Assembly: GCA_019637335.1 (NCBI GenBank) | Contig: JAHBVV010000006.1 | Coordinates: 194,235-258,234 of the forward strand | Direction of reading: 5' to 3' | Source of the DNA: Candidatus Hydrogenedentota bacterium | GTDB taxonomy: Bacteria; Hydrogenedentota; Hydrogenedentia; Hydrogenedentales; JAEUWI01 | DNA: 64,000 bases | In this document: in pieces, positions 28,284-57,485 of the stretch | Layout of the letters: each line of letters begins with the position of its first letter | Position numbering within the stretch: the stretch's first letter is position 1 | Position numbers and translations under genes: made by a program | The notes under the pieces: model-generated | What the model was told of the DNA's origin: nothing | What the model saw: only the letters and a program-made list of their open reading frames with translations | Databases searched by the model: none

Positions 28284-30746
28284 TTATCTCCATAGTGTCA
28301 GGGTAATGAGGGAAAGTCCGAGCAGGAAGAGGTCGCTGGCGCGCTGGCGGAGGTCCTTGATGCCGGTGGGGCCTTGTGGACAGGCGCAGCCGGGCGCGGG
28401 CGGATTGGCGGCGGCGCGAAGTTCTTCCTGGGAGAGCTGACCGTCGTTGTTGGTGTCGATCTGATTGAACATGGCCGCCGTCAGGTTGCTTGCCGCGGCC
28501 TGGGCCTCGCCGAAGTTCAACAGTCCGTTAGCATCGAAGTCGGCCGTTGCGAAATGGTCCAGCAGTTGCTGCGCGATTTCGGGCAGGGTCTCTCCTTCAC
28601 CTTCACCCTCACCCTCTCCTTCACCTTCACCCTCTCCTTCACCTTCTCCTTCACCCTCTCCCTCACCTTCTCCCTCACCTTCTCCCTCACCCTCTCCTTC
28701 ACCTTCTCCCTCTCCTTCACCTTCTCCCTCTCCTTCCGCTGCCTCCGTGACGGTGATGAAGGCCTCCTTGATTTCGGTGTAGACGCCGAGAATCCCGGTT
28801 ACCACGATGCGGCTGGCGTATTCGCCGGGATTGTTGAAGGTAAAGGTGATGGGGCCTTCGGGGTTTTCCGCGTCAATGCTGCCGCTATTGTCGAAATCCC
28901 ACAGGGCGCCAATCACGTCGCCGGTGGTGGCGTTCTGAAAGGTCACGGTCAGCGGTGCGGCGCCGGCGCGTGGTTCCGCGGTGAAGTCCGGTATCGGGAT
29001 TACGTTTTCGCGGACAGCGGCCTGGAAATCGGCGAAGCCGGCCGCGCCATTGGAAGCGGTCACGGTCGCGCGGACGGTGACGGGGCCGATTGCGGCGGGT
29101 CCTTGCGCCCATATGCCGCCGTCGGTGAAGACGCCATCCCCCGCGACGAGGTCGGGGACTACGCCATTGTCGAAGATTGCGAAATCCGCCGTGGTGAGGC
29201 CCACGACGCCGCCCGGGTCCACGCCGTTCACCGGGCTGTAGATGTACGGGTAGATCCGGGTAATGTCGGATCCGGTCGCGGTGAAGAACCAGGTATCCAC
29301 GATCTGCGCGGTCGCGCGCTCCTGGCGAATGAGGGTAATTCGGGGATCGCCCGTCAGGCCGGTGACCGCGGGGGCGCCATCGCCGAAATCCATGACGAGG
29401 AGGTCTCCGGGAGGGTAGTCCGCGCCATGGCGGATCCCGCCGACGAAGAGCACGCGCTGGCCGTCGGCGGAAATCGCGGATAGCGGGCTGCCCACCGTGA
29501 ACCCGGCGAGGCTCAGCGGGACGACGCCCGAGCCGTCCGCGGCGGCCCACCGGATGGTTGGGTTGCTGCCGCCGCCGATGTCGAATTGATGCGAGGTGGC
29601 TGTCGCGTCGCCGCTCAAGTCTGGATTCGTGGGCCAGCGGCCCGCCCCGGGCACGCCGGGGTCGACCAGGATGGGGTTGTCGATGTCATCGAGCGGGGCC
29701 ACAAGCAGGCCCTGGGGATCCGGCGCGGTCCCGGCCCAGCGGCAGAAGGCGACGGTCGATCCGTCGTCCGAAATGCTCGGACCGCGAAAGCTCATCCCGT
29801 TCAGGTTCGTCAGGACGGACGCGTCGCCCGCGGGGGTCCGGGGGTCTTTTAGCAGCAGGCTTGCGGGGTTGTTGGCCGAGGGGTAATTCCCGCCGACGGG
29901 GATGAGGGCGACGGTCGCGGCGTGGTCGATGGCGAGTACGCCACCGGCGGCGGTGACTTCGACGGCGGTTGGCGCGATGCCGGGGATCTCCTGTAGACGC
30001 GCGGCTTCCTGCATCGGGGTGTAGGCTCCCGAATCGATTTCAACGGCGTAGACCGTGAATCCCGAGGCGGGCGGTGCTTCGGGGTCGGAGGAGCCGCCGT
30101 AGGGGCCGAAGCGGTTAATGAACAGGGCCACCTCACCGTTTCCGGAGAGCGCGAAGTTCTGTCGGGCGGTGAAGAGATTGAGGTCCAGGAGGTTGGTCTC
30201 TCCGTAGGCGGTGTGAGAGATTTGGGAGAGGACATCTTCGGTCATACCCGACGCGCGATCATAGCGGCGGATTGTATCGGAAGGCCTCCCGTAGTCTTTC
30301 TCCCCGATGGCGTAGACGACGCGCGAACCGTCGTCGGAAATGCCGTATGTGGCGTACAGCAGCGGGATGTTGAATACCGGCCCGGAGAACAGTACGACTT
30401 CGCCGGTTCCGTCGGTGCGCATGAGGCGCAGGGTCTGGATCAATTCAGCGTTCTGCTGCGTCCGAAAGACGACCCACTCGCCGTCGCCCGACATGTGGAA
30501 ATCGAGGATGCGGTAATCGTTGGCCACGACATCGCTGATTTGGGTGTAGTGTCCGCTTCGGAGCAGGGGCGCGGTCTCGGCGCTGTAGGCGGGGCCGCAG
30601 ACGAGCGCCAGGAAGAGGAACGCCAGGAGGATCACGAGCAGGCGCACGAGCCAGGGCGCGAGATGCGGGTGTCGCAGGGAAATGGGGAGATGGAAATGGG
30701 GGTGGTGTTCGCGCGTGAAGAAGTGCGCGGCAGGACGGGGCGCCAT
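28284..30746 (-). CDS. EGEG-linker surface protein: TolB-like propeller, PKD, EF-hand pair, C-terminal tail
   Basis: 820 residues. A long N-terminal region leads to a membrane/signal segment (LLVILLAFLFLALVCGPAYS). Next are WD40-like PD40 beta-propeller repeats (e.g. FHMSGDGEWVVFR, GISDDGSRVVYA) and a PKD domain (FTAEPRAGAAPLTVTFQNAT, ALWDFDNSG). An (EG)n spacer of about 50 residues is followed by two EF-hand loops (DFDANGLLNFGEA and DTNNDGQLSQEEL, dockerin-like). The end is a CAC motif, a hydrophobic stretch LFLLGLSLITLTLWR and no more. It is probably exported and held at the surface. ATG at 30746 with GAGGAG upstream. The DNA of the linker is a hexanucleotide repeat (about 28590-28735). Confidence 0.8.
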   Translation of the reverse strand: MAPRPAAHFFTREHHPHFHLPISLRHPHLAPWLVRLLVILLAFLFLALVCGPAYSAETAPLLRSGHYTQISDVVANDYRILDFHMSGDGEWVVFRTQQNAELIQTLRLMRTDGTGEVVLFSGPVFNIPLLYATYGISDDGSRVVYAIGEKDYGRPSDTIRRYDRASGMTEDVLSQISHTAYGETNLLDLNLFTARQNFALSGNGEVALFINRFGPYGGSSDPEAPPASGFTVYAVEIDSGAYTPMQEAARLQEIPGIAPTAVEVTAAGGVLAIDHAATVALIPVGGNYPSANNPASLLLKDPRTPAGDASVLTNLNGMSFRGPSISDDGSTVAFCRWAGTAPDPQGLLVAPLDDIDNPILVDPGVPGAGRWPTNPDLSGDATATSHQFDIGGGSNPTIRWAAADGSGVVPLSLAGFTVGSPLSAISADGQRVLFVGGIRHGADYPPGDLLVMDFGDGAPAVTGLTGDPRITLIRQERATAQIVDTWFFTATGSDITRIYPYIYSPVNGVDPGGVVGLTTADFAIFDNGVVPDLVAGDGVFTDGGIWAQGPAAIGPVTVRATVTASNGAAGFADFQAAVRENVIPIPDFTAEPRAGAAPLTVTFQNATTGDVIGALWDFDNSGSIDAENPEGPITFTFNNPGEYASRIVVTGILGVYTEIKEAFITVTEAAEGEGEGEGEGEGEGEGEGEGEGEGEGEGEGEGEGEGEGEGEGEGEGEGETLPEIAQQLLDHFATADFDANGLLNFGEAQAAASNLTAAMFNQIDTNNDGQLSQEELRAAANPPAPGCACPQGPTGIKDLRQRASDLFLLGLSLITLTLWR

Positions 30747-37964: not shown

Positions 37965-38489
37965 TCAGGCGGGTTCGGCATCGAGCTCCGCGGAGAAGGA
38001 TCCGCTTGCTGGAAACGGAAACAGGGCTGTCCAATCCCCGGAGAGGGTATCCGCGCGCCCGTCCCCGTCGCTGTCTATTGCCGTGCCGCTGAGGATCAGG
38101 CTTATGCAGAGGTCGCCGTTGCACCCGCCTATCAGGTCGCGGGAGCGGAGGAGGAAGGTTCCTCCGGCGAGCGAGTAGCCCTCGACTGGAATTTCTCCGA
38201 CGGCGATATTCTGGAAGCGCAGGATGGAATGGAGGATGGTGAAGCACGAGAAGTCGAGGGTGACGTAGCCGGTGACCAGGGTGGCGTCTTCGATGCTGTT
38301 TGCGTTGGGGTAGTGGACGAGTTCGAAGGCCATGGGGCAGGTTTCTACTTCGGCGCCCTCTTCCGCGGTGGTGCTCCAGGAACCGGTGTATTCGCCGGAG
38401 ACATTTGTTCCCACAATGAGTTCCGGACAGCCGGCGAGCAGGAATGCGGCCGTGGTGAATAACGCGGTGAGGAGGGGTTTACGGGGCAT
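37965..38489 (-). CDS. lipoprotein of unknown function
   Basis: 174 residues with a lipoprotein signal peptide ending in the lipobox LLAGC. The mature part is a small beta-rich domain with a few Cys (ETCPMAF, DFSCFTIL, GGCNGDLC) and the motif AIDSDGDGRADTLSG, like a calcium-binding DxDxDG loop. I do not recognise the family. It is convergent with the MshEN-FHA gene (8 bases between stops). It probably sits on the outer membrane. Confidence 0.75.
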   Translation of the reverse strand: MPRKPLLTALFTTAAFLLAGCPELIVGTNVSGEYTGSWSTTAEEGAEVETCPMAFELVHYPNANSIEDATLVTGYVTLDFSCFTILHSILRFQNIAVGEIPVEGYSLAGGTFLLRSRDLIGGCNGDLCISLILSGTAIDSDGDGRADTLSGDWTALFPFPASGSFSAELDAEPA

Positions 38490-38554
38490 GGTGTTCTCCG
38501 GGGTTTGGGGGGTGCTTGCGGGCAGGCAGGGTTAGTATTACATATCCGGTGATT

Positions 38555-38722
38555 ATGATACGGGCTTTCAGCCCTTTGAGGTCAATTGCCCGGAATTCCT
38601 GGGCCGTTGGCCCAGGCTGGTATGTAATGCGCCTTTGGCGCTTCGAGGACGTGCTGTCCTCCACGGCGCGCCTTCGGCCTTTTTTCCCAATTGGTAACAC
38701 TTCAGCGGTCTGAAGTGCGGGA
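38555..38722. repeat. cluster of short different palindromes
   Basis: Within 170 bases six unrelated small hairpins follow one another: GGGCTTTCAGCCC, CTGGGCCGTTGGCCCAG, GCGCCTTTGGCGC, GAGGACGTGCTGTCCTC, GGCGCGCCTTCGGCC and CACTTCAGCGGTCTGAAGTG. No gene is present. The cluster leads straight into the 51-bp array. Confidence 0.7.
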
Positions 38723-38750
38723 CAGGATGTGTTTTTACTAATGGAGCCGG

Positions 38751-39297
38751 TGCTCCATAGTTGTCTTACGCCTGTGGCGCAAGATGCCGGCGGGCCGTCG
38801 GCGCTCCATAGTGGTCTTACGCCTGTGGCGCAAGATGCCGGCGGGCCGCCGGCGCTCCATAGTGGTCTTGCGCCTGTGGCGCAAGATGCCGGCGGGCCGC
38901 CGGCGCTCCATAGTGGTCTTGCGCCTGTGGCGCAAGTTGCCGGCGGGCCGCCGGCGCTCCATAGTGGTCTTGCGCCTGTGGCGCAAGATGCCGGCGGGCC
39001 GCCGGCGCTCCATAGTTGTCTTACGCCTGTGGCGCAAGATGCCGGCGGGCCGCCGGCGCTCCATAGTGGTCTTACGCCTGTGGCGCAAGATGCCGGCGGG
39101 CCGCCGGCGCTCCATAGTTGTCTTGCGCCTGTGGCGCAAGATGTCGGCGGGCCGCCGGCGCTCGATAGTTGTCTTGCGCCTGTGGCGCAAGATGCCGGCG
39201 GGCCGCCGGCGCTCCATAGTTGTTTTGCGCCGGTGGCGCAATCTGTTGGCGGGCCGCCGGCGCTCCTTAGTTGTCTTGCGCCGGTGGCGCAGTTCAT
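38751..39297. repeat. tandem array of eleven 51-bp units, each with two hairpins
   Basis: The unit begins CTCCATAGT, followed by the palindrome CTTGCGCCTGTGGCGCAAG and the palindrome GCCGGCGGGCCGCCGGC. CTCCATAG recurs every 51 bases from 38753 to 39212, with a CTCCTTAG variant at 39263. Variation concentrates in few positions (GGT/TGT, TTGCG/TTACG), and the last two units are most diverged. All six frames stay open because 51 is divisible by three, so I treat the long ORFs here as spurious. The array ends exactly at the stop of the leftward ceramidase-like gene. Confidence 0.9.
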
Positions 39298-40709
39298 CCC
39301 GCCTGGTCGGGGGTCCAATCCTGTGAGGCCAGGTCGCCGGGGCCCTTGAGGGGGCCGATGGCTCCCTGGAGGCGTCCGACCTGGGTGAGGGATTCGGCGA
39401 GGAGGCGTTCGCCGGTTCCGACGGCGACGTAGGTTGCGTTGGAGGCGCCGTAGCCGCCGATTATGGCGGCCTCTATGGTGGGGAAGTAGATGTGGAAGTC
39501 GTTTGCGTAGCCGCATAGCAGGCTGCAGGGGGCGGTGGCGCGCGCCTTGAAATCGATTTGGAATTGGACGAAGGGCTCGCCTGGGTGGAAGGTCAGGGCG
39601 ATGGTATCTTGCAGCAGGAGCGTGTCGACGGGGAGGGGGAGGCTCTCCCCCAGTCCGGCCATGTATTTCTCGAACATGAGGCCGTAGGCCTCGCGGAGAA
39701 TGGCGGTCTGGGCGGGGTCAGTAAAGTCGTAGCGCAGGCCGGCGTCCACGATGGCGCGCTCGTGCGCGATGCGGTTACGATCCGCCGGCCGCCAATCCAG
39801 GTTTTTCAGCGCGGCGAACACCGCTTCGGCGGCTTTGCGGCCTTCGGCGTGCACGGCTTCTTCCGCGCCTTCCGCCAGCGACATTTTGTCGAAGTAGGGG
39901 TTGATGTCGCCGGCGGCCCCCTGGAGGAAGAGGCAGGGCGCGCCGGTGGCCTCCTGGACTTCGCGCGCCATCACGCCGCACCAGTCCGCGGAGTAGCGGG
40001 TGTTGTCGGACGCGAGGATAACGGGGTGGCAGGCGTAGTGCACGAGGGTGGCCACGGCGTCCCCCGCGAGGGATTCGAAGTGAAGCGCGGTGAGCTCCTG
40101 GTCGAGCGGGCCGGAGGGCAGGCGATCGAGGTTTCGCCAGCGCATCCAGCATTGTCCTTCGCGCACGACGCGCCGGTTGTGGGCGATATCGAGAGGCGCA
40201 CGGCCCACGCCGACGCGAACCGGCTGCAACGCATTGGCCGCGCGCTGGAGCAGATCCACGAGGGCCGATTCCATGCCCTGGTTGTGCGGGAGATCGGGCA
40301 GCTCCATGATCGGGCCGCTGTGGGTGTGGGTGGCGGAGAAGATGACTTCTTCGACACCGAACGCGCGGGCCCGATCGCGCACGCGCTGGCAGATGGGTGG
40401 CATGGGCATGCGCCCGAAATCCATGCTGATGATTGCGATCGCAACGCCGCCTGTTCGAAGGAGCAGCGCACGGGCGAAGAGCGGATCCAGCGTGCCGGTG
40501 CTTATCTGGTCGGGGTTGCTGTATCCCCACATCGGGATGCCCGGGGGCGGGGTCAGGTCCGCGAGCGCCGCGCCAGCTTCGAGTGCGCCGTCATCGTCGG
40601 TGTCCGATTGAATTCGTCGCGGTTCGGCGGAGGCGCGGACGCCCGCAGTGAAAAGACCGGCTCCCGCGGTGGATTGCAGCACGAAGTGGCGTCTGGACAG
40701 GGTGCGCAT
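39294..40709 (-). CDS. Tat-exported neutral ceramidase-like protein
   Basis: 471 residues from the ATG at 40709, with a Tat signal (SRRHFVLQSTAGAGLFTAG) and GGAG 10 bases upstream. The body matches the neutral/alkaline ceramidase-like family: LADLTPPPGIPMWGY at the start, FSATHTHSGP (zinc His pair), YACHPVILAS, LFLQGAAGDINPYF and a late FHPGEPFVQF. Full ceramidases split ceramide into sphingosine and fatty acid. This shorter form is a common relative in planctomycete-like bacteria, with unknown substrate. It is divergent from the MOSC gene with 75 bases between starts. Confidence 0.88.
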   Translation of the reverse strand: MRTLSRRHFVLQSTAGAGLFTAGVRASAEPRRIQSDTDDDGALEAGAALADLTPPPGIPMWGYSNPDQISTGTLDPLFARALLLRTGGVAIAIISMDFGRMPMPPICQRVRDRARAFGVEEVIFSATHTHSGPIMELPDLPHNQGMESALVDLLQRAANALQPVRVGVGRAPLDIAHNRRVVREGQCWMRWRNLDRLPSGPLDQELTALHFESLAGDAVATLVHYACHPVILASDNTRYSADWCGVMAREVQEATGAPCLFLQGAAGDINPYFDKMSLAEGAEEAVHAEGRKAAEAVFAALKNLDWRPADRNRIAHERAIVDAGLRYDFTDPAQTAILREAYGLMFEKYMAGLGESLPLPVDTLLLQDTIALTFHPGEPFVQFQIDFKARATAPCSLLCGYANDFHIYFPTIEAAIIGGYGASNATYVAVGTGERLLAESLTQVGRLQGAIGPLKGPGDLASQDWTPDQAG

Positions 40710-40784
40710 GTTATTGTTCTCCGTGGGGCCAGCATAGCACGATTGCGGGCCCGCACCAAGCGCGGCTATCGGGAAACCAGCACG

Positions 40785-41429
40785 ATGAGAGTTCGTTCCG
40801 TCAACGTATCGCGGGTGACGCAGGTATTTCACGAGGGGGAGCTGGTGAGCACGGGCATCTTCAAGCGGCCCGTGGAAGGCTCCGTGGCGGTGGGGCGCGA
40901 GCAAATCGCGGGCGACGAGCAGGCGGATCTGCGGCACCATGGCGGTCCGGACAAGGCGGTCTACGGGTATCCGTGGGAGCATTACGCAACGTGGGGCGCG
41001 GCGCTTGGCCGGGATGACTTTGCGGCGGGTCAGTTTGGCGAGAACCTGACGACGGAGGGTTTGCTGGAAACGGAGGTGTGCATCGGCGATCAGCTGGAGA
41101 TCGGATCGGTTCGCCTGGAGGTCAGCCAGCCGCGGATGCCGTGTTTCAAGCTGGGGATTCGGATGAAACTGCCGGGTTTCCCGAAGCAATTCCTGCGGAG
41201 CGGCCGCGTGGGCTTTTACTTTCGGGTGCTTTCGGAGGGGACCCTGTGCGCGGGAGATCCGATCATCTTGACGCCGTCGGCGTATCCGCGGCTATCGGTG
41301 TCGCGGGTAAGCGACCTTCGTTTTTTTGATCGGGCAAATCACGCAGAAATCAACCGAATTCTTGAAAACCCGGCACTTTCGGCAACGTGGAGGGCGGATT
41401 TCGAGGATTTAATTGCCGCAGGCGGGTAA
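40785..41429 (+). CDS. MOSC domain protein (YiiM-like)
   Basis: 214 residues. The whole protein is a MOSC domain with the YiiM-type core: HHGGPDKAVYGYPWEHYATW, GQFGENLTTEGLLE, CIGDQLEIGSVRLEVSQPR and MPCFKLGIRM, where the invariant Cys would bind the molybdenum cofactor or transfer sulfur. YiiM in E. coli reduces N-hydroxylated purines using the Mo cofactor, so a detoxifying reductase role is likely. ATG at 40785. Confidence 0.92.
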   Translation: MRVRSVNVSRVTQVFHEGELVSTGIFKRPVEGSVAVGREQIAGDEQADLRHHGGPDKAVYGYPWEHYATWGAALGRDDFAAGQFGENLTTEGLLETEVCIGDQLEIGSVRLEVSQPRMPCFKLGIRMKLPGFPKQFLRSGRVGFYFRVLSEGTLCAGDPIILTPSAYPRLSVSRVSDLRFFDRANHAEINRILENPALSATWRADFEDLIAAGG

Positions 41430-45800: not shown

Positions 45801-45823
45801 GTGGCTTTTTTCTGCGGGTACAG

Positions 45824-46203
45824 GCACCCGCGAATTGGGGGTAGCTGGGGCGCTTTCGCGGCTTGGGTGGTTTTTGTCGCGGGAGCCAGTCCCCCTGGCG
45901 GCGCCCGCGAATTGGGGGTGGCTGGGGCGCATTCGCGGCTTGGGTGGTTTTTGTCGCGGGAGCCAGTCCCCCTGGCGGCGCCCGCGAATTGGGGGTGGCT
46001 GGGGCGCTTTCGCGGCTTGGGTGGTTTTTGTCGCGGGAGCCAGTCCCCCTGGCGGCGCCCGCGAATTGGGGGTGGCTGGGGCGCTTTCGCGGCTTGGGTG
46101 GTTCTTGTCGCGGGAGCCAGTCCCCCTGGCGGCGCCCGCGATTTTGGGGTGGCTGGGGCGCTTTCGCGGCTTGGGTGCGTTTTGTCGCGGGAGCCAGTCC
46201 CCG
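45824..46203. repeat. tandem array of five 77-bp units
   Basis: The Gly-Ala step CGCGAATT recurs at exactly 77-base spacing (45832, 45909, 45986, 46063, 46140). Each unit reads CGCGAATTGGGGGTGGCTGG, GCGCTTTCGCGGCTTGGGTG, then GTCGCGGGAGCCAGTCCCCC. 77 is not divisible by three, so a coding repeat is excluded. The first three junctions are nearly identical and the last unit is most altered. Confidence 0.9.
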
Positions 46204-46265: not shown

Positions 46266-48092
46266 TTAGTGGCGGCGACCGACGGCGGAGAGGCCGAGGA
46301 GCGTCACCATGGCCAGGCCCAGCAGGAAGATGTCACCGAGACGCTTCCCGACGGACTTGAAGTTGCACTGGAATCCGCCGCCGCCCTCGCCTTCACCCTC
46401 GCCTTCTCCCTCGCCTTCGCCCTCTCCCTCGCCTTCGCCCTCGCCTTCGCCCTCGCCTTCGCCTTCACCCTCGCCTTCTCCCTCACCTTCACCCTCTCCT
46501 TCACCCTCTCCTTCTCCTTCTCCTTCTCCTTCGCCTTCGCCCTCACCTTCAGCGCCTCCCTCCACGACATCCGCCAATTCAGCTGCCGTGAGGAAACCGT
46601 CGTTGTCCGCATCCATTGCGTCAAACTGCGCCTGGGTCAGGCCGGCAAAAGCGAACGAAGCCTCGGCAAAGCTCAATCGATCGTCGAAATCTACATCCAC
46701 GTCGACGAACAAGGCAATCAAGGTTTCGGCAATAATTGCCAACTCACCCTCTCCTTCACCCTCTCCTTCACCCTCTCCTTCACCCTCTCCTTCACCCTCT
46801 CCTTCACCCTCTCCTTCACCCTCTCCTTCGCCTTCACCTTCGCCCTCACCCTCGCCCTCGCCTTCACCCTCGCCTTCACCCTCGCCTTCACCTTCGCCCT
46901 CGCCTTCACCCTCGCCTTCTCCCTCGCCTTCACCCTCGCCTTCGCCTTCACCTTCACCTTCGCCTTCACCCTCTCCTTCTCCCTCGCCTTCTCCCTCGCC
47001 TTCACCTTCGCCTTCACCTTCGCCTTCACCCTCTCCTTCTCCCTCGCCTTCTCCCTCGCCTTCACCGCCCTCACCCGGGATTGCCGCGTTGGACCAGCCG
47101 AGATCCACGAGGGCGGCGATCTCGAAATCTGCGTATGTGCGAACAGTTTTCGCGGGCGGGAAGGCATGCTCCATCACGGCGCCGCCGACGATGTTTCCGG
47201 TGTCCCAGTGGGAGGTGCTGCTACCCGGTTCGTAGGGGCTTGGCGCGTAGATACCGGGTCGGACGCCGCCCTGATCGTAGGCGACGATGGCGTTGGAGCC
47301 GGCGAAAAAGAGGGCGTTGCTTGTGAACGGGCTGAGGTCTACGCCGAAGACATAGCCCGGGGGATTGCCGGCGAAGAGGTTTGCGCCGGCCTGGGTGGCC
47401 AGTAAGGAATCCCACACGGAGAAGGAGTCGCCGGCCGGATCGGGCTCTCCCATGTTTCCGGTGGTCAGGGAGAGAATGCCGAGTCCGTGTGTAATTTCAT
47501 GGAGCAGGACGGAGGCCAGGTCGAAATTACCGCCGGTGGCGTTCTCCGCGCTGACGTTCCAGTTGTGACCGAAATCAACGGTGACGAACAGCTCCTCCAC
47601 TGTCGCAAAGGGCTTGTTCCCCGTCGTCAGGCGGTGAAAAGCGGTGCCGTTCTGGAAACCGGCGCTTCCGAAAAAGTAGGTGCCGGCGGTGGCGAGGGAC
47701 CCTGCGCCGTCCGTCTGCGATTCTTCGATCACGATGTCGAGGGTACCCGGCTGATTCAGGACATCGGCGACGTAGAGCAGAATTTCCTGCAGACGCGTTC
47801 GGGCATCGGCCCCGATCGCGGGGTCGTCGAAGCCCGCGCCCGTATCGTTGATGATATCGAGGTACCAGATGTTATAGGTGCTGCCGTCGGGGGTCAGCAC
47901 GATGGTCGGCGCGCCGTCGGGCACGTTTTTGGCGGATGCGGACACGGCCTCGATGGAGTGGGCCGTGACTTTGTAGATGGTGTCGGCGGCGCGGGCCGGG
48001 CCCGGTATGATCAGCCCCACCGAGGCGAGCGCCAGGCCGAGGGCGGATGCGCGGGCATACGCGCGGATGCGAGAATTGGCTGTCTTGTACAA
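46266..48092 (-). CDS. EGEG-linker secreted metalloprotease-like protein A
   Basis: 608 residues if started at the TTG at 48092, which has TTGAGGAA 8 bases upstream and is followed by a signal peptide ([21 protein letters not shown]); there is no ATG close by. The catalytic-like domain has [10 protein letters not shown] near residue 197, and further on [16 protein letters not shown], which may give a third His and a Met-turn, as in leishmanolysin-like metzincins. Next is a long (EG)n spacer, an EF-hand pair ([26 protein letters not shown]), a second EG spacer, then [12 protein letters not shown] and the hydrophobic tail [21 protein letters not shown]. Likely exported and surface-anchored protease. 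Confidence 0.75.
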
Positions 48093-48180: not shown

Positions 48181-49374
48181 CTATGGTTTCCGGGCGGCGT
48201 CGCGCCATCCCGCGAGGAGGGCAAGCATACCGGCGAATAATACCACTTCTCCCCCGGCCCGGGAGGCGGGCGACTTGGCGCCAGCCAGGAGCGGGCATCC
48301 GGGTAACTCTCCTTCACCTTCACCTTCACCCTCGCCTTCACCCTCGCCTTCACCCTCGCCTTCCCCTTCCCCTTCGCCCTCGCCTTCGCCTTCGGCGGCT
48401 TCGACGTTGGCGTATCCGATATCGATCAGGGCGCCGGCGTCCACGGGGGCGTATTCACGCTGCATGACGCCGAGGATGATAACATGGGTCATGACGGCGG
48501 GGCCGACGAGATTGTCGATATCCCAGTGGCTGATGCTGCTGCCGGGCTGGTAGGGATTCGGGGCGAAGATGGGCGGGCGGGAGCCCTGGGCGTAGAAGGT
48601 GAAGGCGTTGGGGCCATCGAACCAGATGTCCTCGTTACTGAGGCTTGCCGCGCCGGTCTGGAGGGTGGGGTTGGCGGGATTGCCGAGGACGCGCAGACTG
48701 CTTACTGCGTCGAACAGGAGCGAATCGTAGACGGTGTAGACGCCGCTCGCGATGCTGCTGGAGCCATCGGGTTCGATGAGGGAGGTGAAACCGAGACCGT
48801 GGGTGACTTCGTGGAGGAGCACGGAGAAGAAATCGGCCTCGCCGGGCCCGGGCGGGGCCTCGGTGACGTTCCAGTCGAAGCCCTTGTCCACCTGGACCTG
48901 GATTTCGGGGAAACCGGGAAAGGGCTTTATGCCGGTGTTGAGGCGCTGGAGCGTGCTGCCGGTGTGGAATCCGGGGGCCACGGGATAGAAGGTTCCGGCG
49001 GTTGCGAGGGCTCCGGTTCCGTCGAACTGGCTGGGCTCCATGACGATATCGAGGGTGCGGCCGGGGATATTGATGGTATCGGCGACGTAGGCGAGGACAT
49101 CCTCAAAGCGGGCGCGGAAGGATGGGCCGTCCACGGGGTCGGTGAAGCCCTGGTTCACATCCTCGTAGGTGATGTTGAAAGTGATCCCGCTGGCGATGAA
49201 TTGTTCCGTGGTCCCGCCGCCTTTCGGATAATATTCGGCTCCTTTGGTGGCGTCGAAGAGCTCGTTTTCGCCGTGTGGCCGCACGAGGACGATGGGTTCG
49301 GCGTGGGCTGCGCCGGCGCAGAGGAGCGCGGCGAGCAGGGTAAACAGGCATTGGCTGCGATAGATGGGCTGCAT
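48181..49374 (-). CDS. EGEG-linker secreted metalloprotease-like protein B
   Basis: 397 residues, paralogue of protein A and directly upstream on the same strand. Signal peptide LFTLLAALLCAGAAHA. HEVTHGLGFTSL near residue 187 and SHWDIDNLVGPAVMTH match protein A. It has only a short EG spacer (about 28 residues), no EF-hand pair, then PGCPLLAGAKSP and the hydrophobic tail VVLFAGMLALLAGW ending in basic residues. The tandem arrangement suggests duplication. ATG at 49374. Confidence 0.8.
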   Translation of the reverse strand: MQPIYRSQCLFTLLAALLCAGAAHAEPIVLVRPHGENELFDATKGAEYYPKGGGTTEQFIASGITFNITYEDVNQGFTDPVDGPSFRARFEDVLAYVADTINIPGRTLDIVMEPSQFDGTGALATAGTFYPVAPGFHTGSTLQRLNTGIKPFPGFPEIQVQVDKGFDWNVTEAPPGPGEADFFSVLLHEVTHGLGFTSLIEPDGSSSIASGVYTVYDSLLFDAVSSLRVLGNPANPTLQTGAASLSNEDIWFDGPNAFTFYAQGSRPPIFAPNPYQPGSSISHWDIDNLVGPAVMTHVIILGVMQREYAPVDAGALIDIGYANVEAAEGEGEGEGEGEGEGEGEGEGEGEGEGEGELPGCPLLAGAKSPASRAGGEVVLFAGMLALLAGWRDAARKP

Positions 49375-55538: not shown

Positions 55539-57485
55539 CTACGGTTGCCGGGCCGGGTCCTTCTGTTCCGCGGGGGGAACCTCCGAAGCCTTGTTCTCGC
55601 CTTGCTCCGCCTTTTCCGGAGGGGGCGACTTGTGTTTTTCGGATTCCGGAGGCGCAGTTGGGGAGCCCGGTTTGCCGCTGCTTCCCCGAGGAGCGCTATC
55701 CGCGGCGGGTGGCTTGGCCGCGGCCGGCGGTTTATTCATAGCAGCTGGCTTGGCGGCTGGCTTGGCCGTCGCGGCTGGTTTATTCGTGGCGGATGCATTG
55801 GCCTCGCCGGCTGGCTTGGCCTTAGTGACGGGTTTAGTCGCGGCGGGCGCCTTGTTTGCGGCGGCTGGCTTGGCCGTAGTGGCTGGCTTTTCGGCGATGG
55901 CTGGCTTGGCCGCGGTGGGCGCCTTGTCCGCAGTGGCTGGCTTTTCCACAGTGGCTGGCTTTTCCACAGTGGCTGGCTTTTCCACAGTGGCTGGCTTTTC
56001 CACAGTGGCTGGCTTTTCCACAGTGGCTGGCTTTTCGCCGATGGCTGGCTTGTCCGCTGTGGCTGGCTTGTCCACTGTGGCAGGCTTCTCCGCAGGGGCT
56101 GTCTTGACCGCAGGGGCAGGCTTGTCCACTGTGGCAGGCTTCTCCGCAGGGGCTGTCTTGACCGCAGGGGCTGTCTTGTCCGCAGGGGCTGTCTTGACCG
56201 CAGGGGCAGGCTTGTCCGCTGTGGCTGGCTTGTCCGCAGTGGCTGGCTTGTTCGCGGCGGCAGGCTTCTCCGCAGTGGGTGTCTTTTCCGCGGTGGGCGC
56301 CTTGTCCGCAGTGCCTGGCTTCTCCACTGTGGGTGTCTTGTCCGCAGTGGCAGGCTTGTCCGCAGTGGCAGGCTTGTCCGCAGTGGCAGGCTTGTCCGCA
56401 GTGGCAGGCTTGTCCGCAGTGGCAGGCTTGTCCGCCGTGGCAGGCTTGTTCGCTGTGGGCGGTTCAACCGCAGGATCTGTCCCGTCCGCCGCGGCGGGCT
56501 CATCCACCGCGGGCGGCGTGTCCGAGGGGTCTTTATCGTCGTGGACAACCACTTCGTGTGCGCCCGGCACGTCCGCGCGTTCGTGTGGTGGTTCTGGCAA
56601 GAGGGCTGGTTGGGCCTTTGCCCTGGGTTCGGGCGCCTCGTTAACAAAGACGTACACCTTTCGTTGTACGAAGGCGTTTCGGAGGTATTCCGCGTCGAAT
56701 CCGGGCACCGGTTTTCCTTCGGTGGCGAACTTGTAAAGGACGACGCTGAGGACGGCGCTGATTGACTGGTGCGCCACGATGGCCCCGTAGACCAAGAGAA
56801 GAATGACGAAGGTCACCGATTTTGGCCAGGGACCCTCCTGCAAGTAGGCGTATCCGGCCAATGCGAGCGCGGGCAGATTCAGGAGCCAGAAGAACCAGAG
56901 CAGGCCGGTGCGCGGCACGGCGGCCTCGCCCCACTGATCGCGCACGGCTTCCACGGAGCGGCGCACGGCTCGGACAATGTCGAGCCGGTCGACGACGAGC
57001 ACGGGGAGCAGGAAATAGCGCATTTGCGACCAGTTTGTGCGCGTGATGCGGCGCAACCAGTGGGCGGTGATGCGGTGTTGTTCCATGAGGCTCAGGAGGG
57101 GGCCCACCGTCCAGCCGAAGACTGCCCAGATAGCGATCCAGTGAATGTTTTTGGCCGCGGCGCCGAGCCCGACGGACAAGTCGGAAGCCTGTTCGTCGAT
57201 CGACATGCGTGTTGCCGCGACGAGGCCGAAAGAAAAGAAGACGGAAATGACGGCGACCACGAGGTAGCCCACAAAGAAGAAGCGCGCGTGCTGGAGCGTA
57301 TCGATAATGAAGAGGGCCCAGAAGAGCACGTCGGTGCCCAGTATCAGGCGGAAAAGAATAATGAGGGTCATGGCCGCCGAAAACGGGATCAGCGGAAAGA
57401 GCAAGAGTGATTTATTTCGAAATACGATGCGGGTGCATTGAAATCCGAGGTGCCATCCGCGGCGTATCGTGTCGACTACAGCCAT
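55539..57485 (-). CDS. DUF6159-type multi-pass membrane protein with long KPATADKP repeat tail
   Basis: 648 residues. The first 280 match the neighbouring protein segment by segment (LLLFPLIPFSAAMTLIILF, YFLLPVLVVDR, VLSVVLYKFA, GFDAEYLRNAFVQRK). The remaining 370 residues are low-complexity repeats of KPATADKPATA / KTAPAEKPATV type, ending in PPESEKHKSPPPEKAE. The tail is Lys/Ala/Pro-rich, like histone-H1-like or periplasm-spanning TonB-type linkers, so it may reach through a compartment or bind DNA or wall polymers. ATG at 57485 with GGAGG before it. Confidence 0.75.
   Translation of the reverse strand: MAVVDTIRRGWHLGFQCTRIVFRNKSLLLFPLIPFSAAMTLIILFRLILGTDVLFWALFIIDTLQHARFFFVGYLVVAVISVFFSFGLVAATRMSIDEQASDLSVGLGAAAKNIHWIAIWAVFGWTVGPLLSLMEQHRITAHWLRRITRTNWSQMRYFLLPVLVVDRLDIVRAVRRSVEAVRDQWGEAAVPRTGLLWFFWLLNLPALALAGYAYLQEGPWPKSVTFVILLLVYGAIVAHQSISAVLSVVLYKFATEGKPVPGFDAEYLRNAFVQRKVYVFVNEAPEPRAKAQPALLPEPPHERADVPGAHEVVVHDDKDPSDTPPAVDEPAAADGTDPAVEPPTANKPATADKPATADKPATADKPATADKPATADKPATADKTPTVEKPGTADKAPTAEKTPTAEKPAAANKPATADKPATADKPAPAVKTAPADKTAPAVKTAPAEKPATVDKPAPAVKTAPAEKPATVDKPATADKPAIGEKPATVEKPATVEKPATVEKPATVEKPATVEKPATADKAPTAAKPAIAEKPATTAKPAAANKAPAATKPVTKAKPAGEANASATNKPAATAKPAAKPAAMNKPPAAAKPPAADSAPRGSSGKPGSPTAPPESEKHKSPPPEKAEQGENKASEVPPAEQKDPARQP
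55880..56460. repeat. 18-bp tandem repeats inside the DUF6159-type gene
   Basis: The unit TTGTCCGCAGTGGCAGGC and variants such as TTTTCCACAGTGGCTGGC recur about thirty times in frame. Runs of identical units (five TTTTCCACAGTGGCTGGC, seven TTGTCCGCAGTGGCAGGC) indicate recent expansion. Confidence 0.85.

Follow-up and report, generated by a model that had tools for sequence, protein, structure and literature searches.

The array and the genes around it

The window, which is the whole 64-kb stretch of DNA analyzed here, contains a tandem array that Tandem Repeats Finder (TRF) resolved as 51 bp × 10.7 copies at 38746-39291, with 95% matches and a score of 938. This agrees to within a few bases with the interval of 38751-39297 given by an earlier examination of the letters of the window (hereafter the sequence-only reading). 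The features of the locus, by window position, are as follows.

37965..38489, minus strand: 174-aa ORF with no Pfam family, co-oriented with the ceramidase-like gene and the first gene past the array on that strand, on the downstream side
38479..39516, minus strand: 345-aa mechanical ORF across the array, judged spurious (no Pfam or NCBIfam family; no synonymous excess over all arrays)
38686..38693, plus strand: putative left copy of an 8-bp target duplication, CCCAATTG, placed by position and by analogy with other copies
38694..38706, plus strand: left terminal inverted repeat of a MITE, GTAACACTTCAGC, with one mismatch to GTAACACTTTAGC (end-pattern reading)
38694..38752, plus strand: left arm of the MITE, resembling other copies in alignment
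38746..39291, plus strand: REP-like two-hairpin unit of the right-hand type of the MITE, head to tail, 51 bp × 10.7 (TRF and unit reading)
38765..38783, plus strand: first hairpin, copy 1 of 11, repeating every 51 bp, the last at 39275-39293
38786..38809, plus strand: 24-base core (second hairpin plus GCTCCAT tag), copy 1 of 10, repeating every 51 bp, the last at 39245-39268
39294..41189, minus strand: ceramidase-like gene (Ceramidase_alk domain, E 3.5e-13), whose stop codon adjoins the array

On the plus strand, a full unit consists of a first hairpin (CTTGCGCCTGTGGCGCAAG or close to it), a 2-base spacer, the second hairpin GCCGGCGGGCCGCCGGC, and then GCTCCATAGT. The sequence-only reading had described two hairpins per unit and 22 in all; the former holds, and a direct count gave 11 first and 10 second hairpins, 21 in total, the left-most "unit" being the left arm of the MITE fused to the array. 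The hairpin sequences it quoted for each unit are also not uniform: scored on Watson-Crick pairs alone, the first hairpin pairs at 8/8 positions in 5 of the 11 units, at 7/8 in another 5, and at 6/8 in 1, and 7 of the 10 second hairpins are perfect (7/7). When folded as DNA, one unit gave z-scores of −4.5 and −4.3 on the two strands and a 150-base stretch of the array gave −6.0, with none of 200 dinucleotide shuffles as good in each case; 600 nt of the minus strand folded as RNA gave −13.3 (0 of 100 shuffles as good), a value inflated by tandem repetition. All 10 cores lie in one orientation, unlike the alternating orientation of BIME-2. With copy number taken from one assembly, this is the longest array among the window and the 49 further stretches of the genome that we fetched (see below). 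The contig of the window, C6, ends inside another array of these units (L041, G000:C6 end, 262918; 49-bp spacing), so such arrays may break assembly.

As the sequence-only reading had proposed, the array sits at the 3′ end of a gene: the stop codon of the minus-strand ceramidase-like gene occupies 39294-39296, two bases beyond where the TRF array stops. Alignments of the ceramidase-like protein with five of its best homologues reach residues 568-571 of 577, and the protein therefore seems to end without an extension into the array; its real start probably lies further in than the ORF start. The best homologues in three same-genus genomes are 31-35% identical, and matches to the protein number 19 in its own genome, counting itself, and from 1 to 23 per genome in 39 relatives (1-23). 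A palindrome, TGGGCCGTTGGCCCAGGCTGG, at 38600-38620, just upstream of the MITE, has five matches at ≤2 mismatches in the window and the 49 fetched stretches; as it too is repeated, the intergenic region is a repeat mosaic.

A dispersed unit, often between IS66-type ends

We then examined the distribution of the unit across the genome of origin (G000; 7.16 Mb in 55 contigs). The 24-base core matched 102 + 28 = 130 times on the two strands at ≤3 mismatches, with 0 + 0 for the reversed control, though a palindrome can match both strands. The sequence-only reading had staked its case on similar units occurring elsewhere, and the genome-wide search bears this out. The first hairpin alone was less distinctive (55 + 20 matches versus 16 + 13 for its control). 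A plasmid collection gave no match, and neither did Rfam when the window was scanned against it with gathering scores as the cut-off. Forty-nine stretches were fetched around listed core sites, so that the sample is of the better matches. Together with the window they held 47 core clusters, and six stretches had no core at 3 mismatches. Both IS66-type ends lay within 250 bp of 25 of the 47 clusters, one end lay within that distance of 11 (the window's included), and none did for the other 11, whereas both ends surrounded 39 of 7,924 places drawn at random from these stretches. Units stood as an inverted pair, 132 bp apart, in 15 of the 49 fetched stretches.

Alignment of these 15 stretches showed that conservation extends beyond the inverted pair, reaching GTAACACTTTAGC to the left and approximately GCTAAAGTGTTAC to the right; departures were seen at the left end of L023, the right end of L061, and the last bases of L051, and extra units were found in L047, L059, L060, and L061. 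The basic element is thus a geneless MITE of 289 bp with an inverted core pair and 13-bp terminal inverted repeats, the left one GTAACACTTTAGC and the right one often GTATCACTTTAGC, frequently with one mismatch. In size, terminal repeats, and lack of a transposase gene it conforms to a MITE, at 289 bp in the basic form and up to 596 bp in array-bearing copies, set against a MITE range of ~100 to ~400 bp in the available text of PMC3116915. Target duplications are of fixed length across copies: the window, the IS66 loci, and the fetched stretches gave 48 pairs of terminal repeats, of which 17 were flanked by an exact 8-bp direct duplication, and each other length from 3 to 13 gave 0-2. Sixteen core-bearing MITEs have the exact duplication, including the array-bearing L035, L046, L047, and L059; L058 has a near-duplication differing by one base and L066 one differing by two. 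A 22-bp left-end pattern matched 115 + 77 times in the genome at ≤3 mismatches (control 0 + 0); each of 39 relatives had 0-4 such matches.

At the window locus, the terminal repeat GTAACACTTCAGC (38694) and the left arm run directly into the array, and the right end is lost: no right-type end was present near the array at ≤3 mismatches, and no partner of CCCAATTG was identified. This truncated IS66-type MITE around the array, like the dispersed REP-like nature of the unit, had escaped the sequence-only reading. Similar ends of IS66 type also bound a second kind of MITE, at L036:7492-7798 and L038:4423-4751, which carries a related but different two-hairpin pair, GCGGGCGGGCCGCCCGCGCTCCCA, in both and GCGGGCGGGCCGCCCGCGCTCCCATTGGTCC in L038. 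A pair inside a MITE may therefore be an old layout rather than one nested insertion. We found no pair-free ancestor of the 289-bp MITE, and we infer capture of a REP pair by the MITE.

The genome also contains a candidate helper. PF03050 has four matches, at loci L070 to L073, of which L070 is an intact single ORF of 490 aa that carries PF03050 and zf-IS66 domains and matches the IS66 transposase model NF033517 (NCBIfam) with E 3.7e-83. Its ends lie at C4:200366 and C4:201890, 1525 bp end to end, and its 22-bp ends have 0 and 2 mismatches to the query, so that the MITE and a resident autonomous IS66-family element have ends in common; no clear target duplication was seen around the intact L070. 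L071 (G000:C25) is a degenerate IS66 gene that nonetheless has IS66-type ends, lying between similar elements of 222 and 225 bp that each have such ends as well; none were seen at L072 and L073. In the accessible parts of PMC12898284 and PMC11946415, the latter treating Frankia IS66, the family is described as having ends that start GTAA and 8-bp direct repeats, with an ISBst12 group that has a single transposase ORF; the end of ISDge4 is given as GTAACTGCTCAGCA (PMC12898284). GTAA ends, 8-bp repeats, and the single ORF of L070 are common to our element and this group as there described, whereas the window copy has no transposase and one end left. A resident single-ORF, ISBst12-like IS66-family element most likely moves the MITE in trans, as judged from the ends they have in common.

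The unit itself resembles REP sequences. It is a high-copy palindrome that keeps its pairing: among core copies with two changes, 16 of 28 have compensatory changes, 10 of 14 in the stretches from the same-genus genome G003 and 6 of 14 in those from G000, a tally of copies and not of independent events in which the six from G000 are one type. A first hairpin of ≥6 bp precedes 85 of 156 tagged units, array copies included, versus 13.5 with shuffled flanks. Locus L032 has a 189-aa RAYT-like ORF (NF047646, 75.9 bits, under the cut-off of 80) with inverted pairs to either side of it, three in total and 128-129 bp apart, and the similarity of these pairs stops at TATGGAGC...GCTCCATA. Because of the compensatory changes and the RAYT-like gene flanked by unit pairs, we describe the unit as REP-like, though its conserved flank is GCTCCAT and not the GTAG or CGTC tag by which two REP super-families are defined in the portions of PMC3116915, PMC3733652, and PMC2817692 available to us. 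Also against REP membership, exact cores were found at only 1 of 12 Y1-transposase loci in G000 and, among the loci fetched from other genomes, at 2 in G003 (7 fetched of 9) and at none in G001 (7 of 14) or G002 (8 of 18). At ≤2 mismatches the core occurs in 5 of 68 genomes of the phylum, its own included, with three of these having it once each, and apart from its own genome it is dispersed in that of one congener (G003). There it has 55 matches and the terminal-repeat pattern has one; when 20 stretches fetched from G003 were read more strictly, 18 had cores, 11 of them a single one, with the first hairpin varying or absent.

Probable expansion of the unit within the MITE

Sibling copies in the 49 fetched stretches have one to eight cores at spacings of 29, 34, and 49-53 bp. 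One-core MITEs measure 180 bp (L031), 181 bp (L033), and 188 bp (L053), and those with three to eight cores measure 528 bp (L035), 384 bp (L046), 391 bp (L047), 596 bp (L059), 262 bp (L058), and 332 bp (L066). In L061 it is the left-hand unit that is expanded, L060 has a 34-bp version, and L041 and L058 have a 49-bp version. Expanded arrays with no IS66-type ends nearby also occur, in L052 (29 bp) and L067 (53 bp), so expansion is possible without the MITE. We compared 38 units from the seven arrays that have three or more units spaced at exactly 51 bp. Mean differences were 3.2 bases within the window array and 2.1-4.4 within five others; the mean between arrays was 10.0, the left-hand-type L061 included. 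The L025 array is not homogenized, with a mean difference of 11. The variation in core number and spacing among siblings suggests local tandem duplication. Its repeated occurrence, with hairpins favoring slippage, would be the simplest reading of these data, and growth before transposition and growth after it would look alike.

These data are consistent with a history in three layers. At the base is the REP-like unit dispersed in the genome, with its variable first hairpin, its second hairpin GCCGGCGGGCCGCCGGC, and its conserved GCTCCAT tag. An inverted pair of such units makes up the middle of the 289-bp MITE, with its 13-bp ends and 8-bp target duplications, which, being transposase-free, would most likely have been moved by the resident IS66-family element. 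Finally, the right-hand unit is tandemly duplicated in several MITE copies and the left-hand unit in one, the probable route being slippage or unequal exchange between short stretches of homology, with help from the hairpins. In the window copy, the right end of the MITE has been lost and the array lies against the ceramidase-like stop codon. We thus consider it very probable that the array is a minisatellite that arose within a non-autonomous IS66-type MITE carrying REP-like units. It is most likely mobile-DNA debris of known architecture, rather than a protein-coding gene or a site dedicated to control.

Competing readings and known counterparts

Translation of the array into a repeat protein of 17-residue units, for example (LWSAGGPPASCATGARQ)n on the minus strand, is allowed by the arithmetic, as 51 = 3 × 17. 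The sequence-only reading held that all frames are open; five of the six frames of the unit consensus are, and plus frame 0 is interrupted by a stop in every unit. It also held translation to be possible and not favored, and we concur. In the window array alone, variants were synonymous at 6/12 and 5/12 in two frames against an expected 0.30, a small number. Over all arrays, no frame exceeded expectation (observed 0.18-0.32, expected 0.29-0.32), the sibling spacings of 29, 34, 49, 50, 52, and 53 bp break the frame, and the array ORF had no family above cut-off in Pfam or NCBIfam, with one sub-threshold Pfam match of 10 residues. We regard a repeat protein as very improbable.

A selected structure in the 3′-untranslated region is a different proposal, in which the array would end or stabilize the ceramidase-like transcript, or bind gyrase or nucleoid proteins like BIME-2 of Escherichia coli, with its length under selection. 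Its position two bases past a stop codon and its folding, far above shuffles on both strands, favor this, and the available part of PMC2817692 describes gyrase binding by BIME-2 and effects of REPs on Rho-dependent termination. Terminator-like sites around the array, however, numbered two (one where the MITE arm meets the array) against a shuffle mean of 1.9, and unit number and spacing vary among copies; promoter-like sites numbered zero against a shuffle mean of 0.3. None of 24 insertions bounded by terminal inverted repeats (six without a core by the same count) lay inside called ORFs, and they showed no preference for gene 3′ ends: 10 were between tandem genes, 8 divergent, 4 convergent, and 2 unscored, with 107/36/35 for all adjacent called pairs in the same stretches, which is weak evidence because gene calling at these sites was crude enough to score the array ORF in the window as a gene. 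The transcription block or RNA scaffold that the sequence-only reading suggested is thus not favored, given the 4 convergent insertions of 24 and the shuffle-like number of terminator-like sites, and we judge a selected 3′ structure unlikely. Debris of a mobile element with no selected host function is favored instead, on an argument from silence; gyrase binding, protection of mRNA 3′ ends, or an influence on the ceramidase-like transcript or on supercoiling could possibly arise as side effects.

The units might otherwise have spread as REPs or REPINs solely through a RAYT (HUH) transposase, with the array a REP cluster and the IS66-type ends incidental. The REP-like core, the L032 pairs that flank a RAYT-like gene and lose similarity at the tag, the dispersal of the core in G003, where the terminal-repeat pattern matches once, and the 11 of 47 G000 clusters with no IS66-type end are all in keeping with this. 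Against it stand the 36 of 47 clusters with one or both ends, many with 8-bp duplications, and the absence of the GTAG/CGTC tag from the core. HUH transposases are not known to make 8-bp target duplications. Because of the IS66-type ends we rank this account below that of the MITE, and consider it quite unlikely. Both machineries may have contributed, and we tentatively raise the possibility of a chimeric element in which a REPIN-like pair derived from RAYT-moved palindromes sits inside an IS66/ISBst12-type MITE. Such an element would join two unrelated chemistries (HUH and DDE), and its hairpins, prone to repeated and independent tandem expansion, would make it a genome-wide generator of arrays.

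The preferred reading, a minisatellite grown within an IS66-type MITE, has partial counterparts in other bacteria. As far as the accessible text of PMC4596501 describes it, the BrickBuilt MITE of Porphyromonas gingivalis has ends like those of a resident IS, a leader, 1 to 22.8 head-to-tail repeats, and a tail; it is intergenic, keeps both ends in 4 of 19 copies, has a 23-nt unit, IS5-family ends, and irregular target duplications, and is found in P. gingivalis and P. gulae. On that description, our element is likewise non-autonomous and intergenic, with terminal repeats like those of a resident IS and a variable head-to-tail array, but it differs in its 51-bp two-hairpin REP-like unit, its IS66-type ends, its regular 8-bp duplications, and an array grown out of a single arm of an inverted pair. 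In Streptococcus pneumoniae, according to the part of PMC3049150 available, BOX elements have a fixed boxA and boxC around a variable boxB array, and so resemble our element in having fixed ends around a module in variable tandem number; unlike them, ours has an array of REP-like palindromes and likely an IS66 helper, and we claim no sequence relation. REP, REPIN, and BIME sequences, going by the excerpts of PMC3116915, PMC3733652, and PMC2817692, have in common with our unit a palindrome with a one-sided unpaired tag, compensatory changes, inverted doublets, and tandem clusters, and one of our cases flanks a RAYT-like gene; ours differs in its GCTCCAT tag, in at least one IS66-type end at 36 of 47 clusters, and in the extra variable first hairpin of many units. 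Tandem REP arrays are reported from Pseudomonas and other genomes in the same portions of PMC3116915 and PMC3733652. Titles and abstracts of the open-license PMC literature yielded none that describes tandemly expanded REP-like pairs within an IS66 MITE, which leaves absence unproven. Within the literature searched, and as far as these searches show, REP-like inverted pairs in an IS66-type MITE with one-arm expansion are a new combination of known kinds.

The case shows how a bacterial minisatellite can arise, from a REP-like palindrome in a MITE followed by local multiplication, and copies of one to eleven units in one genome provide natural comparisons. It also carries a warning for gene callers, since open frames of as many as 345 codons run through the array and a simple caller scored one as a gene.

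Finally, we note other repeats in the window. TRF found a second minisatellite, 77 bp × 4.9, at 45823-46202, the unit of which is partly dispersed (27 genome matches at ≤3 mismatches, control 0; several neighbors 76-78 bp apart). Repeats of short period (6 to 30 bp) lie at 28594-28736, 46382-46551, 46744-47066, 48307-48394, and 55863-56458, and could be low-complexity coding tracts.
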